Source: Natronosalvus caseinilyticus (GTDB taxonomy: Archaea > Halobacteriota > Halobacteria > Halobacteriales > Natrialbaceae). Taken from it: a stretch of 64,000 nucleotides of DNA. Of the stretch, positions 37,900 to 45,708 are shown piece after piece. Below the pieces are notes generated by a model. The model worked only from the letters and a program-made list of their open reading frames with translations, was not told where the DNA came from and made no database searches. Location: contig NZ_CP071596.1 of NCBI RefSeq assembly GCF_017357105.1, forward strand, positions 1,984,001 to 2,048,000. Direction: 5' to 3'. Within the stretch, counting starts at the first letter, position 1, and each line of letters starts with the position of its first letter. The translations under genes and the position numbers were made by a program.

Positions 37900-39039
37900 C
37901 TACGTGTGGCCGGCCTTCTTTTGCTTCTTGTAGTCCGGCACACACTCGCTCTCGTCTTCGTTTTTGTGTTCGTCGTCGGTTTCGTCCTCGTCATCACCGT
38001 CGTTACTTTCGTCCTCATCGCTTTCGTCTCCGTCGCTCGTGCTCGTGTGTTCCTCCTGGGTACTGATCTGTACGCTCTCCTGGATCACGTAGATCGCGCT
38101 CTCGTTCGCCTCGACGACGATATCGACGTCCTGGTCGTTCAGCTGGGAACTCTCCTGTATCACGTCGGCCGTCGCACCTGGACCTGCCGCGGCGGCCATC
38201 GCCTCTTGCTCGCTGCGCTGGACGTTGATCTGGGCGACGACGACCGCCGCCTCCGACGCGGTGACGTTCACCGAGGCGAACTGGGTCGCGCGCTGGTCGT
38301 TCTCCTGTTGGACGACCGCCGACGCGTTCTCGCCAGCCGCCGCCGCGTAGCCCCTCTGGTCGTTCTCCTGGACGTTCAACTGGACGACGAGGACGGCTGC
38401 CCGTTCGGCGTCGACCGTGACCGTTGCGTTCTGATTCGTCGTCTGGTTGTTCTCCTGATAAACCGCTGCGCGGCTGTCGGGTCCGGTCGCCGTCGACTCG
38501 CCGTCCTGCTCGGTTCGATCGCGGGTGACTTGCTCCACCGTCACGACCGTCCCGTGATCGGTCGTGATCGTCGCTTCGCCGTCGTCGACGGCGAGCGTTT
38601 CGCCGTTCGCAGTCGACGCCGTCACGTCGTTCGTGAAGTCCGCGAGCGTCGCCTCGTCGGCGTCGTCCGCTGACTCCAGCAGCGTTCCCCAGACGAGTTC
38701 GGCGTCCTCGTCTTCCAGGGCGTGCACCCGCGTCGACTCTTCTCCGTCGATTGTGCTCGATTCGATGACGACCGCCTCGAGTTCGTGGGTGTCGAATTCG
38801 GCGAGTGCCTCCTCGATCGACATCGTTCCGTCTTCGGTCACGACCGTGGCCGAGTCGGTGCCGTTCCCGGCGTTCGCGTGTGACTGATCGGGCTGGTACG
38901 ACGTCGCCTCGAGTGGCGTCTGGGTCGCTTCGATAACGGTACCTGTCGCTGCCAGCGATGCGCCTGCTGGGACTGCCATGCCGATCACGACGATGACAAC
39001 CGCGAGTAGTGTGATCGGGACGGGAGTGTGTCTTTGCAT
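37900..39039 (-). CDS. Secreted protein with three ~48-residue Gln/Asn repeats, convergent to the giant repeat protein
   Basis: A protein of 379 residues from ATG 39039. It has a signal (PITLLAVVIVVIGMAVPAGASLA) and an acidic N-terminal domain to ~170. Three repeats of 48-50 residues follow (about 185-335), each with Q-x-N-x-Q turns alternating with V/A/I-rich strands such as AAVLVVQLNVQENDQ and AAVVVAQINVQ. The tail is a Ser/Asp/Glu run ending in a basic KKQKKAGHT. Repeat length and Gln/Asn spacing parallel the neighbour at 34512-37514. Several N-x-S/T sites suggest glycosylation. TTATTAAAAC (about 39074-39083, minus strand) may be its TATA box. No known family recognised. Confidence 0.75.
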   Translation of the reverse strand: MQRHTPVPITLLAVVIVVIGMAVPAGASLAATGTVIEATQTPLEATSYQPDQSHANAGNGTDSATVVTEDGTMSIEEALAEFDTHELEAVVIESSTIDGEESTRVHALEDEDAELVWGTLLESADDADEATLADFTNDVTASTANGETLAVDDGEATITTDHGTVVTVEQVTRDRTEQDGESTATGPDSRAAVYQENNQTTNQNATVTVDAERAAVLVVQLNVQENDQRGYAAAAGENASAVVQQENDQRATQFASVNVTASEAAVVVAQINVQRSEQEAMAAAAGPGATADVIQESSQLNDQDVDIVVEANESAIYVIQESVQISTQEEHTSTSDGDESDEDESNDGDDEDETDDEHKNEDESECVPDYKKQKKAGHT

Positions 39040-39663
39040 GATAATACCGATTTTGACGACGGTAACGGCGTGTTTTAATAATGACTTCCCAACCATTCGT
39101 AGGGTGGTCCAACGGGGCCGCTGGGGCCTATCCGGGAGATTTACAGTGGGATGAGCGGTCTGTAGCAGGCGAATATCGAACACTCACTGCGAACATCGCT
39201 CGAGAGAGGAGGCCATTACCGAGGTGTACGGGCTGGATACCGGCCGGCGCACCTGGCCACGGACCCGCGAAATTCGAAATAGCGGAGTTAAAAGGGGGTT
39301 ACGGACCGGCTATCGGAATCGTCGCTCGAGGACGTGTTCGTGCGGAGTCCCCGCCGGTTCTACGATCCCCGATCCCGGAAGTATAATGTGGCCTTTCGAT
39401 GAACTATTTCGGTCTCTCCCGGTGGTCGACTCGATCCTGATACGTCTCGACACCCTCGCGTCTGGCGTACGTGAATCGCTAGTGATGTGTCGTCGACGGG
39501 ACTATTACGGCGGTGAAATGGCACGTATCGACGACACACACGTACGATGACGAGTAACCGCAGTCGGAAACTTCAACATGTGACGGTTTACGGACGATAT
39601 AACTCTAATTGTCAACCCATGACGAGGTTCTCCCTTTAAGAGAGCAGTGGTCGATGGAGTCGA
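39040..39663. other. 620-base stretch without a confident gene
   Basis: It holds the promoters of the two divergent genes. A 54-codon open frame at 39386-39550 (MWPFDELFRSLPVVDSILIR) starts nine bases after a TATA-like AAGTATAA. That is too close for a normal promoter, and the peptide has no family features. I do not call it a gene. Confidence 0.4.
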
Positions 39664-40242
39664 GTGAATGCTGTACGCATGAACGGGAATAGTCAGCTGC
39701 TCGAGGACCTCTCGGAAGACATTCGAGAGATGACGAGGAATCTCCGGCGGCGATACGTGCTGTATTGCCTGTCAGAGCGAGACGGTCCGGTGGACCTCTT
39801 CGACCTCGTCGAACGCGTCGCGAGCTGGGAATCCGGGTGCGAACCCGATCAACTCGACAGGCGAACCGTCAAATCGGTCTATAGCTCGCTCTATCAGTCC
39901 CACCTCCCGTTGCTCGAGGAGCGAGACCTCGTCTCGTTCGATCGGCAACGAAAGGTCGTCTCGCCGACGGACCGGACGAAACGCGTCACGATCGAATTTC
40001 GGACGGACCCGTCCCCACTCGATCGGCAGTCGGCAGCCACGATCGTCGGAGTCTCGATTGCAGCCGCGTCGGTGAGCCTCTGGGGAGGCCAGCTCTTCCC
40101 GACCGCGATCAGTGGACTCGTGGGCATCACCCTGCTCGCGGTCGTGCTCGTCTCGAGCTACGCCGCGTATCGATCCGCTCGGCGATCGACGACGTCGATT
40201 GCGCCGGATTTCACGCTCACCGTCGACGACACGCGTCGGTAG
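39664..40242 (+). CDS. DUF7344-type winged-helix protein with C-terminal membrane helices
   Basis: A protein of 192 residues. The first ~110 residues fit the haloarchaeal DUF7344 winged-helix pattern (RRRYVLYCLSERDGPVDLFDLVERVASWE, then YSSLYQSHLPLLEERDLVSFD). Two hydrophobic segments follow (~120-165), so it is a membrane-tethered regulator candidate. CCTTTAAG (about 39633-39640) is ~26 bases before the GTG at 39664, consistent with a leaderless GTG start; ATG 39679 is the alternative. Targets are unknown. Confidence 0.7.
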   Translation: MNAVRMNGNSQLLEDLSEDIREMTRNLRRRYVLYCLSERDGPVDLFDLVERVASWESGCEPDQLDRRTVKSVYSSLYQSHLPLLEERDLVSFDRQRKVVSPTDRTKRVTIEFRTDPSPLDRQSAATIVGVSIAAASVSLWGGQLFPTAISGLVGITLLAVVLVSSYAAYRSARRSTTSIAPDFTLTVDDTRR

Positions 40243-40393: not shown

Positions 40394-43312
40394 TCAAAAA
40401 TCGTCCACACTCGCGTCCGTTTCCCCGTCTGGGTCGTAGTTGGGTATCGAGGAGGTCAACTCGAATTCGTCGAACCCGTCGGTATCCTCGACCAGGACGT
40501 TCTCCGTTGCTGCTCCGTCTACTCGTTGTGCCACCAGTCTGCTGTGGGCGGCCTGTAGTTCCTCGACGGAGAGGTCCAGTTCCGGATCCAGAAACTCGAG
40601 GAGCACTCGATCGAGTTCGTCCTGTGCTCCGTCGACACCCCGTACCAGTTTCTCTCCGGCCGCCACAATCCGCTCACGTTGTGACTCGGACATCAATTCC
40701 GGACTGGGAACCGGAACCGACGACACTTCGTACGTGAGCAACTGAAGCGCCCCTCCGCCCTCGTGACGGCCCCACAGTTCGAGCAGTACCTTGTACACGG
40801 TCGAGTGGAGAATAGCCGGAAGTACGTCGTCGTACTCGGTGATATCGACGCACTGGATCGCGTTCGTCGGCGCATACCCACCGGCGTTGTCGACCGTGAA
40901 CACCCGTTCGTTGTAGAACACTGGATGTAAGACGTCCGGGACGAGCAGGTGTCCCAGGTTGAACCAGGGCGTACGTTGAGACACGGTTCGTCCATCGGGG
41001 ACGCCCGCTTCTTCCCCGTACTCGAGGTAGCTGACCGTCGACTCGTACCCGTCGGTGCGTAACTCGTTCGTTACTGCTTCTGCCAGGTCGCTCGTCGAGC
41101 CCAATCCGTCCTGACGTGCCTCGACAGTATCGACGTACGCGCAGAAATCGAGAAGGTACTGATCCGTATCCGCCACGCGATACGACTCCAGCGCTCGAAT
41201 CGATCGAATCGCTGGCTGCAGGAATCGCTCGTCGATCCCCCACTGCGTGACGTCCTGCTCGTCGAGCAAGAAAAAGTCGTTATTTCCCGTCTTGTTGCCG
41301 AACGCCACGTCTGCATACGTATCCAGCCGCCGCATCTTGTCGCTGTGGACGAGCGAGATGAACGGACTCGGGCCGTACAGGTAGTGGCCGAGCTTTCGCC
41401 CACCCTGTCTCTCCAGGCGGTTCTGGGAGAGACTGACGACTCGGTACGCGTCGGTCATCTCGATTCCAAACGCCTTCCCGTCGGGGACCGACCGTCGAGC
41501 GCCCGCAATCGACGGGAGTTCCGCAGGCGACAGTCGCTCTTTCACCCGGATGAAGTCCGTAACCGTCTCCCGACGCTCCGTTTCGTCGGTACATCGTTCG
41601 GCGAACAACACTACCGTATCGACGAGGGGGGTGAACGCTCTGTCGGAAAACCCGACGATAGCGTGGACTTTCGCCTGATCGTACAGGAACTCCTGAAACG
41701 ACTCGCCGTATTTCGTCGTTAGCCACTTCGCGGGAACGATGAATCCGAGGCGTCCCCCGTCTCGGAGGAACTGCAACGCGTGTGAGACGAAGTAGACGTA
41801 CGCGTCGGACCTGGTCGATAGTTCGTTCCGCCCGCTCGCGTATCGACTCGAGTTCTCCGCGCCGTACGTCCTCAGGTGAGAACGGAAGTGGTCCCTGTCG
41901 GGAGACAGGTTCTCCTGGCGGATGTACGGCGGGTTCGCGACTACTGCGTCGTATCTCCTCGTCTCGTCTTCCGTATCGTCTCCCCGCGACAGCCGCCTGT
42001 CCCCGGGTGACACGTTGAAGAAGGAGTCGTTGATCGTGTGTAATCGGCTGGTTCGCTCCTGGACGGTTCGTGACGCGAGATTGAGCGCCGTGAGGTGTAA
42101 CGGAAATCGGCTGACGTCGATTGCGGTGATGTTGTCGAGAATCTCCTGGTGTGTTGCCGAGGGTGCTAGCGCCTGCATTCGGTGGTACGCTTTTACCGGG
42201 AATGTACCGCTTCCGGACGCCGGATCGAGGACTCGAGGGACGCCATCTCTCTGCTCCTGGGGTTGCAGCGCCCAGGTACAGATCGCTTCGGCGATATCTG
42301 GATGGGTGTAAAACTGCCCGAGGGACGTTCGATCGTGTTCTGTGATCAGGTCCTCGTACGGTTCCCCCAGCAGGTCCTCGTCGACGGTGGAGAGGCTCTC
42401 TGTCTCGATACGCCCGAGCAGTGCACGCACGGCTGACCGCGTTTTCGAATTGTGTGGGTACGCGGCGAACAACGACGGACCGTCGTCGAACGCGGGTTCG
42501 AAGTCAATTTCCGCCCGAATCGCTTCGACCTGCTGCCCGATTCGGGGTGGGCTATCGGCCGCCGAGGCGCCTTCGACGAGGGGCTCGAGCGGATAGCTGC
42601 TCGTCTCGCCTGGTTCGGACCGCTGTTCTCGAACGACTTCGGCGAACAGAAGGTGACTGGCGACCAGGTACGCGTACTGTTTGGCGGCGAGGGAGAACCG
42701 TATAGACTCCTCGAGTGACGCGTACTCGTTCTCCCGGAGCCACTCGTCGAATCTCTCGGCGAAATCGGGGTCGGAATCGTACGTTTCTCGAGCGAGGTCC
42801 CGGAACGTCGGCCAGATCGAGTCGTGAAACGAACGAAGCGGGCCGACGATTCGGTCGCGTGCGCTCTGTTCGGGAAGTTCACCGTGGGTCGTGAGAAACT
42901 GAACCGCGTAGAGAATCGTCGAGAATCGGTCGTTTGCCGACGGACCGTCGACGTCGACGTCACGGAAATCGAGGTAGTAGTGGGGAATCTCCAAAATCTC
43001 ACGCTGGCCCGTGTCGTGAAACAGGAAGAAGTCACGGGAGTTGCACGTCGCGAAGTGCTCGACGTCGGCCGCATCTGCGGTGTCTCGAGCCTGCGTCATT
43101 ACGTCGGCGTCGAGGGGATAGACGCAATCGCGCTCGACTGCGATGACCAGGCTCTCGGTGACGTCGGATTCGACGACGATGTTCCCCAGTCCCGGCTCGC
43201 CTCCCTCCTCGATTCGAACGGATTCGAACGGCGTTCGTTCGCGGTGGACACAGTCACGTAATCGCGTACAGAGAACACGGTGGAACTCCGATTCGGATGG
43301 AGTACCCGGCAT
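40394..43312 (-). CDS. Large N6-adenine DNA methyltransferase (type IIG-like), nuclease domain apparently dead
   Basis: A protein of 972 residues. Residues ~1-110 look like a PD-(D/E)xK nuclease fold: IVVESDVTESLVIAVERD then QARDTADAADVEHFATCN. The E-x-K pair is replaced by A-V-E. The methyltransferase core has motif I VLDPASGSGTFPVKAY (~365) and motif IV VVANPPYIRQE (~465), as in Eco57I/IIG enzymes. The C-terminal half (~650-950) resembles target-recognition regions (VAFGNKTGNNDFFLLDE). No separate restriction subunit is seen nearby. Roles could be solitary methylation or a defence remnant. Confidence 0.82.
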   Translation of the reverse strand: MPGTPSESEFHRVLCTRLRDCVHRERTPFESVRIEEGGEPGLGNIVVESDVTESLVIAVERDCVYPLDADVMTQARDTADAADVEHFATCNSRDFFLFHDTGQREILEIPHYYLDFRDVDVDGPSANDRFSTILYAVQFLTTHGELPEQSARDRIVGPLRSFHDSIWPTFRDLARETYDSDPDFAERFDEWLRENEYASLEESIRFSLAAKQYAYLVASHLLFAEVVREQRSEPGETSSYPLEPLVEGASAADSPPRIGQQVEAIRAEIDFEPAFDDGPSLFAAYPHNSKTRSAVRALLGRIETESLSTVDEDLLGEPYEDLITEHDRTSLGQFYTHPDIAEAICTWALQPQEQRDGVPRVLDPASGSGTFPVKAYHRMQALAPSATHQEILDNITAIDVSRFPLHLTALNLASRTVQERTSRLHTINDSFFNVSPGDRRLSRGDDTEDETRRYDAVVANPPYIRQENLSPDRDHFRSHLRTYGAENSSRYASGRNELSTRSDAYVYFVSHALQFLRDGGRLGFIVPAKWLTTKYGESFQEFLYDQAKVHAIVGFSDRAFTPLVDTVVLFAERCTDETERRETVTDFIRVKERLSPAELPSIAGARRSVPDGKAFGIEMTDAYRVVSLSQNRLERQGGRKLGHYLYGPSPFISLVHSDKMRRLDTYADVAFGNKTGNNDFFLLDEQDVTQWGIDERFLQPAIRSIRALESYRVADTDQYLLDFCAYVDTVEARQDGLGSTSDLAEAVTNELRTDGYESTVSYLEYGEEAGVPDGRTVSQRTPWFNLGHLLVPDVLHPVFYNERVFTVDNAGGYAPTNAIQCVDITEYDDVLPAILHSTVYKVLLELWGRHEGGGALQLLTYEVSSVPVPSPELMSESQRERIVAAGEKLVRGVDGAQDELDRVLLEFLDPELDLSVEELQAAHSRLVAQRVDGAATENVLVEDTDGFDEFELTSSIPNYDPDGETDASVDDF

Positions 43313-44192: not shown

Positions 44193-45708
44193 TTGACATC
44201 CACCCACGACTGAAGTCGTGGGATTCCTCTCGTGGGAGTCTCAGTCGTCTGAGTCCCCGAGAGCGATATTCCCGCGTGATGCGGTACTCCGGGTTGTGTA
44301 TTCCTCGTTGGTCGTTGTTTCCGCGATGGAAGGCGGGCTATGGTCGTCCCGCCAGTTGTGATTGTTCCACGTGAGGTACACGGGCCGTGCCATCGACCCG
44401 ACTGCTGTTTGCCGTCTCAGGAACGATTCCGACGCGATGAGGTCGGCGTGTCCTTCGAACCCACATGGGCACGTCAACGAATCTTCGTGACGACGTGTAT
44501 TGTCGCGTTCACCGCACACAGGACACTCTGACTTGTCCACGCTTCGGATTCTTCCCCGACCGTGATACCGTACTCTTCGCATATGTCTTCGAGGCGGTCG
44601 ATGAACCGCCGGTACGCCCAGAAGTTGTGTGTCTTCTCGTTCACACGCGACGACCAGTGCGTTGAGAGAACGCCCTTGATGTCGCCGACGTACAGCGTCG
44701 AAACACCCTCGTCATACAGGCGTTCCACAAGGTCTCGGACGAGGCTGTCTTGGGCGTGGTTGCGGCGGTTCGTGCGCGTTCGATACAAGCGGTTGATGCG
44801 CTTGCTAGACTTGCGTTGGTCTTCGAGGAGCGACTGATAGTACGCGATTTGTTCGGTGATTTCGCGGAACTCCGTGAACAAGGTGCGTCCGTCATACAGG
44901 TATTGGGAGCCGGTCGTTGTCGTGCAGGCGACGAGGTTGTTCGCGCCAACGTCCAGAGCGGCTTCTTCCGAAGCCAGTGGTGAATCCAGTTGAGAACTGG
45001 CGATGGTGACTGGTTGATAAGCCCTGAACGTCTTCGCGAGTTCGTCGTACACGAGTTCGAGTCGGCCCTGCTCGCCGCTCCACTTCGGGTCGCCCGTAAC
45101 CTCAACGCGAAGGCGCTGATTCCGGTTCAGCCCGAGTTCGCCTTTGAGTTCGGAGCCAATCGGGACTTCGAGCCGGGAACGCTTCCCGAACTTGAGGGTG
45201 TACTGGTCGTTTCGAACGTAGGTGCGTAGGACTCGTCCGTCGCCTTCGTTGCCCCAGTACCCGGTGGCGACGGTCGGTCATCGAGTTTCCCGGCGTGGTA
45301 CCTCTCGTTACTGGAGAAGAACGATCGCCACGCTTCGGAGTTTTTGCGGATGAGTTGCTGGGCGACACTACTGCTGAGGACGCCTTTGTATTTGCCTTCG
45401 AGGCTACCGGTATCGGCGTCCCAGACGCTCTCATCGTCTTCGAGGAAGGCTTGGCGACGAGCGTAGTTGGTCTCGTTCCAGAGACTCGCAGAAGCGTCCA
45501 ACCAGCGAACGAACACCTCGCGCTCCTTTTCGGAACGAGGGCAAACGTCGAACTGGTTGGTTCGCTTCATCACTACGTGATACGTAATATTGGTTCGTAA
45601 AAGTATGGATTAGCGTGGGAGACTCAGACCTGCCATCGCACGTGGTCGGGTAGCGGAGTGTCGGATTCATCCCACGACTGAAGTCGTAGGCTTTCTCCTT
45701 GATTCTGT
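44193..45708 (-). mobile_element. IS200/IS605-family element 3 (tnpB only, decayed)
   Basis: Left-end hairpin CCCACGACTGAAGTCGTAGG (45671-45690) is 18 bases from GTAA (45709-45712; TTAC on the element strand). The right-end hairpin (44203-44222) is followed by TCAA (44193-44196 complement). There is no tnpA. The terminal hairpins match element 1, while the tnpB matches element 2, so the ends and the gene come from different lineages. It probably moved with a TnpA supplied in trans. Confidence 0.8.
44241..45573 (-). pseudogene. tnpB: tnpB pseudogene with two frameshifts
   Basis: Three frames together cover a full TnpB like that at 11794-13122. Residues from MMKRTNQFDVC run to about 45260, where the frame shifts. 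The middle part (including [17 protein letters not shown] and ESEAWTSQS) runs to about 44530, where a second shift occurs. The zinc-ribbon end ([14 protein letters not shown]...[11 protein letters not shown]) is in a third frame. The RuvC-I Asp and the EAWTS Glu are still readable. It is not expected to make a working protein. Confidence 0.88.

Follow-up and report, generated by a model that had tools for sequence, protein, structure and literature searches.

Background

Among the extracellular repeat proteins described to date, those most similar in design to the pair of genes treated here are CsgA and CsgB of curli, a major and a minor protein composed of tandem coils of ca. 23 residues. The published curlin core is defined by an N-x5-Q spacing, and its inward-facing residues are hydrophobic, Ser or Thr (PMC10192328). 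Among archaea, Methanospirillum hungatei has an extracellular sheath protein, SH, which is amyloid-like, of the beta-arch type, and equipped with a cap domain (PMC10593813); it differs in being a single 40-kDa protein which forms sheath rings, and we liken it to our proteins by its description, not by sequence. In biofilms of Haloferax volcanii Congo red and thioflavin T staining revealed a putative amyloid in the matrix; its protein was not identified, and the authors proposed HVO_1403 as a potential determinant (PMC4180959). This is a haloarchaeal matrix component, which may be distinct from the proteins described below. In addition, an earlier study mentioned a single archaeal protein whose repeats resemble those of curli, without naming it in the main text (PMC3521004). 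The literature that we searched, with partial coverage, held no description of the present system.

The window analysed is a stretch of 64,000 bp from the haloarchaeon Natronosalvus caseinilyticus. It contains the genes of a small, head-bearing repeat protein (P0001) and of a giant repeat protein (P0002). As such pairings recur in other haloarchaea with different heads, the two may make up a bipartite fibre of the cell surface or matrix, curli-like and possibly unrelated to curli.

The small protein

P0001 is a small, putatively secreted two-part protein of 379 amino acids encoded at 37900..39039 (minus strand, stop codon included), with an ATG start codon at 39039. The first 31 residues (38947..39039, minus strand) form a hydrophobic, signal-like N-terminus, the call and its boundary coming from a reading of the sequence by eye and not from signal-peptide software. 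They are followed by a non-repetitive head (aa 32–186; 38482..38946, minus strand) with no match above the cut-off in Pfam or NCBIfam, a repeat region (aa 187–336; 38032..38481, minus strand) of three 50-residue repeats, or six coils of 25 residues, and a charged tail (aa 337–379; 37903..38031, minus strand) in which an acidic stretch precedes Cys and Lys residues. This agrees with the initial annotation, which had described a head and a charged tail ending in basic residues. A sequence search of the PDB with P0001 gave no match. Upstream of the gene (39070..39104, minus strand) lies an element with a TATA-like ATTATTAAA box, and a similar stretch precedes the gene of a paralogue (locus L004), the likeness of the two being judged by eye rather than by a statistic.

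Orthologues of P0001 (ca. 92% identity) are present in two other genomes of the genus, and the paralogue, encoded in the same genome, has 48–52% identity and shares three residues of the tail, a Cys and two Lys. Comparison with the orthologues gave dN/dS values of 0.13–0.18 for the whole protein and of 0.04–0.15 for the repeats. The ORF is real, and its repeats are under purifying selection.

The self-similarity of P0001 is strongest at a lag of 50 residues, followed by lags of 100, 25 and 75; at lag 50 the mean BLOSUM62 score is 1.65, and none of 1000 shuffled sequences exceeded 0.89. The motif [N/S]xQxxxQ starts at residues 197, 222, 247, 272, 297 and 322, that is at a spacing of exactly 25 (six observed, 0.2 expected), and alternate positions of the coils are hydrophobic. 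Three repeats had been proposed before, and three there are; the lengths first given (48, 50 and ca. 47) do not hold, as each is 50 residues long and divides into two coils.

The giant protein and its likeness to P0001

The giant P0002 (34512..37514, plus strand; 1000 aa) consists of ca. 40 coils of 23–25 residues with the consensus GxxNxQxAxQ and a repeat unit of 47–48 residues. Pfam and NCBIfam again gave no match above the cut-off. Since the unit of P0001 is 50 residues, the lengths of the two repeats, earlier taken to be the same, are alike without being equal. The motif [N/S]-x-Q-x-[ASTVN]-x-Q occurs six times in P0001 (0.1 expected) and 43 times in P0002 (1.4 expected), counts to be read in the knowledge that the shared motif is short and was picked after the sequences had been seen. 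No other ORF of at least 100 aa in the window reaches three copies of such a motif, in agreement with the initial annotation; a third ORF of this type was sought within the window and none was found.

In both proteins the first inward position of the coil motif is occupied by Gln, and in curli it is hydrophobic. This common departure from the curlin core is the best sign in the sequences that the two types of repeat may be related, although the motif might also have been reached by convergence.

P0002 possesses Cys residues at aa 42 and 89, near the start of the repeats and some 45–47 residues, or two coils, apart. A similar Cys pair is found near the start of the repeats in the FG-GAP companions of other giants, discussed below (aa 687 and 732 in L069:4054-7686), and is invariant in six sequences; both pairs could possibly form disulfides.

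Predicted folds

The segment of P0002 from aa 132 to 370 was modelled from an alignment of six rows as an all-beta structure with turns at the GxxN positions. The best of five models had a pLDDT of 72 and a pTM of 0.60, the other four having pLDDT values of 29–58. Foldseek gave no match to this model at E ≤ 0.001. Structural Z scores, computed on PDB chains preselected by Foldseek, were 10.3 for the Escherichia coli CsgA fibril (rmsd 8.4 over 101 residues), 8.7 for Pontibacter CsgA (22% identity) and 9.3–10.5 for SufB/D beta-helices, which are thus level with the CsgA fibril. The all-beta model is of moderate confidence and has both CsgA and SufB/D among its neighbours; the giant is likely to be a beta-solenoid, of either kind. 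P0001, modelled alone and without an alignment, reached a pLDDT of only 43, too low for the model to inform on its fold.

This low value, together with the very high Glu, Asp and Gln content of the second half of the giant (33% Glu and 19% Gln), would be in keeping with repeats that are mainly disordered, acidic Gln-rich polymers holding water and salt at the surface in the manner of halomucin, P0001 being a minor variant. Such a polymer would scarcely be expected to keep the strict coil lengths, with Asn and Gln at fixed alternating positions, or the hydrophobic alternate positions of P0001; the purifying selection on the repeats of P0001 and the solenoid model of the N-terminal half of the giant also argue against it, and we consider it improbable.

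Comparison with curli

The resemblance to curli extends to the N-x5-Q spacing and repeats of about 23 residues, found in both proteins (coils of 23–25 residues in the giant and 25 in P0001), to the split of the repeat proteins into a major and a minor one, and to the place of the CsgA fibril among the best structural neighbours of the giant model. One might then regard the pair as a true archaeal branch of curli, with the giant a homologue of CsgA and P0001 a nucleator like CsgB. Coils near 23 aa with the curlin N-x5-Q spacing (PMC10192328) would suit such a descent, as would the sole PDB sequence match of the giant profile, which is a CsgA; its E-value of 8.5 is not significant, and the SufB/D beta-helices score as high in structure. 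The curlin repeat (PF07012) was without match at E ≤ 1 in the eight genomes of the genus, with a positive E. coli control, and was absent from a direct Pfam scan; CsgG (PF03783) was likewise without match at E ≤ 0.01 in the eight genomes, with positive controls. An archaeon with a single membrane would not need a CsgG channel. The canonical core, N-x-[hydrophobic/S/T]-x-[hydrophobic/S/T]-x-Q, occurs 0–1 times per protein in P0001 and P0002, which is the level of shuffled sequences. The giant, in its archaeal host, is also much longer than its curli counterpart, and the minor protein carries a large head; to our knowledge CsgB has none. By the tests made (PF07012, CsgG and core motif) the two proteins do not appear to be curli, and we regard common descent with CsgA and CsgB as very improbable. 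The pair may work like curli all the same.

Linkage of the two genes

The P0001 and giant genes are both present in three of the eight genomes of the genus and both missing from the other five, one of which is 66% complete. In the three pair-bearing genomes the locus is syntenic and the genes are convergent. Were the genomes independent, this pattern would be expected by chance in 1 of 56 cases; they are not, and a single gain or loss may account for it. More telling than this count is another locus of the window's own genome, at which the gene of the P0001 paralogue has that of an 879-aa giant downstream of it, at a distance of 1.3 kb and on the same strand. The genetic linkage of small and giant genes is well supported. 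The facing orientation of the pair in the window was dropped as evidence of partnership, and it cannot be essential, since the second copy and the pairs of other families are arranged in tandem. The second pair (L004:4186-13103) has a 181-aa ORF with a signal between its small and giant genes, and adjoins a 991-aa ORF resembling the primase of a mobile island.

Outside the genus, a profile search of 391 Halobacteria genomes did not find the small protein. Two marginal hits near E 8e-4 proved dissimilar on inspection, and none of the eight weak-hit loci inspected held a similar protein, several being ORFs of unrelated make-up or on the opposite strand. The named genomes and viral contigs scanned gave no match either. 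The small protein was never seen without a giant.

Partners of the giants in other families

A profile of the giant detected giants in 11 of the 391 Halobacteria genomes. Eight of the 11 lie outside the genus, and a family search added one more (G060). The expectation that the two genes co-occur is therefore borne out within the genus and twice in this genome and fails in other families, where giants exist without a protein of the P0001 type, so that the independent occurrence which would speak against a strict pairing is in part what we observe.

Six of the eight giants outside the genus (G164, G228, G235, G321, G334 and G410) have a companion gene directly upstream on the same strand; the genomes with giant and companion include Halostella pelagica, HArc-gm2 and Halorussus amylolyticus. 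The six companions (1210–1587 aa) display a signal-like start, FG-GAP repeats (recognised by Pfam in the three that were scanned and by alignment in each of the six), an acidic linker and then Q-rich repeats with a periodicity of ca. 23–25 residues. The neighbour of the G303 giant has an acidic region and Q-repeats and is without an FG-GAP match, and beside the giants of G028 and G060 no Q-repeat companion could be clearly recognised. The G028 giant adjoins a Ser-rich ORF of 209 aa with a signal (L019:5972-6601), possibly a different kind of partner.

Among 14 FG-GAP proteins, the Gln content of the richest 150 residues was 0.31–0.35 in the three adjacent to giants and 0.01–0.06 in the other eleven. 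Across the class, the companion profile matched 48 genomes, nearly all of the others in the propeller part only, and matches spanning the whole Q region were confined to the six giant-bearing genomes; as the same six companions had served to build the profile, and some loci are incomplete at their ends, this restriction is suggestive and not a blind test. The same profile gave no match to genome G000 at E ≤ 1e-15.

P0001 too lies beside a giant and has a Q-repeat region with a periodicity of ca. 23–25 residues. Like the FG-GAP companions (e.g. L069:4054-7686 of Halostella pelagica) it has a signal-like start and a head ahead of its Q-rich repeats. The companions differ in their propeller head, their three to four times greater length, and a Q-x-Q-x-Q pattern where P0001 has strict coils of 25 residues; no sequence match was found between its head and theirs, and Pfam detected no FG-GAP in P0001. 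Since giants elsewhere adjoin partners with FG-GAP heads and Q-rich tails, the combination of a giant made purely of repeats and a Q-repeat partner that bears a head is a recurrent one, in which the heads are exchangeable. The proposal of a two-component system consequently survives in a broader form, with adjacent head-bearing partners beside most giants of other families, and not as a strict pairing of these two proteins.

Alternatively, P0001 is an independent surface protein or adhesin in the cassette of the giant, its repeats holding the head on a rigid stalk and its product not assembling with the giant. The unequal coils (25 residues against 23–24) and a head and tail which find no match in the giant are what one would then expect, and co-inheritance of a cassette within a genus requires no contact between its products. 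For unrelated products, a second linked pair in another arrangement would be unexpected, and so would head-bearing Q-repeat partners beside the giants of other families. We judge this reading to be rather unlikely.

In G303 several adjacent Q-repeat ORFs are found at two loci (L075:5616-11478 and L076:7712-10877), and the repeat family may therefore have expanded there. The giants of G321 and G228 (L073:9014-10342 and L072:8025-11092) are split over frames; the G321 match crosses three TAG codons, and L072 contains 1176 N. Decay and assembly error are equally compatible with the splits.

Proposed model

We favour, with a probability of roughly 0.45, the reading that P0001 and the giant belong to an extracellular system of haloarchaea with two repeat-protein components, the giant being the solenoid body and P0001 the minor component, which bears a head and docks to that body by its coils. 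Both proteins would be exported by way of their signal peptides. The ca. 40 coils of the giant would form a long beta-solenoid, the body of a fibre or matrix strand, and P0001 a short solenoid of six coils with a similar Gln/Asn ladder, plus its head and charged tail. Docking would most likely take place through these coils at the end or the side of the giant solenoid, whereupon the head or tail could decorate, cap, anchor or seed the fibre; the exchange of heads between families fits the first three roles somewhat better than strict nucleation. In favour of the model are the linkage at two loci and in three genomes, the DUF7344 gene that goes with the pair, the common motif, the recurrent head-bearing partners and the lack of Q tails in the eleven other FG-GAP proteins, the solenoid model of the giant and the selection on the repeats. 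Against it are the uninformative model of P0001, the coil lengths (25 against 23–24), the giants without P0001, the lack of a clear Q-repeat partner in G028 and G060, the genus pattern that may reflect one gain or loss, and a companion profile that was not blind.

More tentatively, one may envisage extracellular beta-solenoid fibres of two components as a class of their own in haloarchaea, with a Gln ladder in the core where curli is hydrophobic, a giant shaft and exchangeable head-bearing partners with short solenoids (an orphan head in this genus, an FG-GAP propeller elsewhere); such fibres would be a functional analogue of curli, possibly of independent origin. In view of the amyloid-staining biofilms of Haloferax (PMC4180959), it is of interest that the linked genes, with their curlin-like spacing and their recurrence across families with other heads, are concrete candidates for encoding a matrix fibre in archaea. 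The system also lends itself to asking whether such a fibre is seeded, capped or decorated by a separate protein with few repeats, and a core lined with Gln, if true, would be an uncommon way to build a solenoid in molar salt.

Neighbouring genes

The gene at 39664..40242 (plus strand) specifies a DUF7344 protein of 192 aa whose orthologue (93% identity) is limited to the three pair-bearing genomes of the genus; less closely related DUF7344 genes are common throughout the eight genomes. It has been inherited with the pair at this locus, and its product is possibly a regulator. DUF7344 genes also lie near four giants of other families (Pfam was run on three). In a tree with long branches the DUF7344 protein of the window groups with two of the giant-linked ones (support 98/92); all four and that of the window do not form one group. 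On a reading of the sequence, the module is adjoined by a 972-aa ORF (40394-43312, minus strand) with an NPPY motif that resembles a DNA methyltransferase, and two ORFs further along the window (44474-45573, minus strand) resemble pieces of a TnpB-type transposase.
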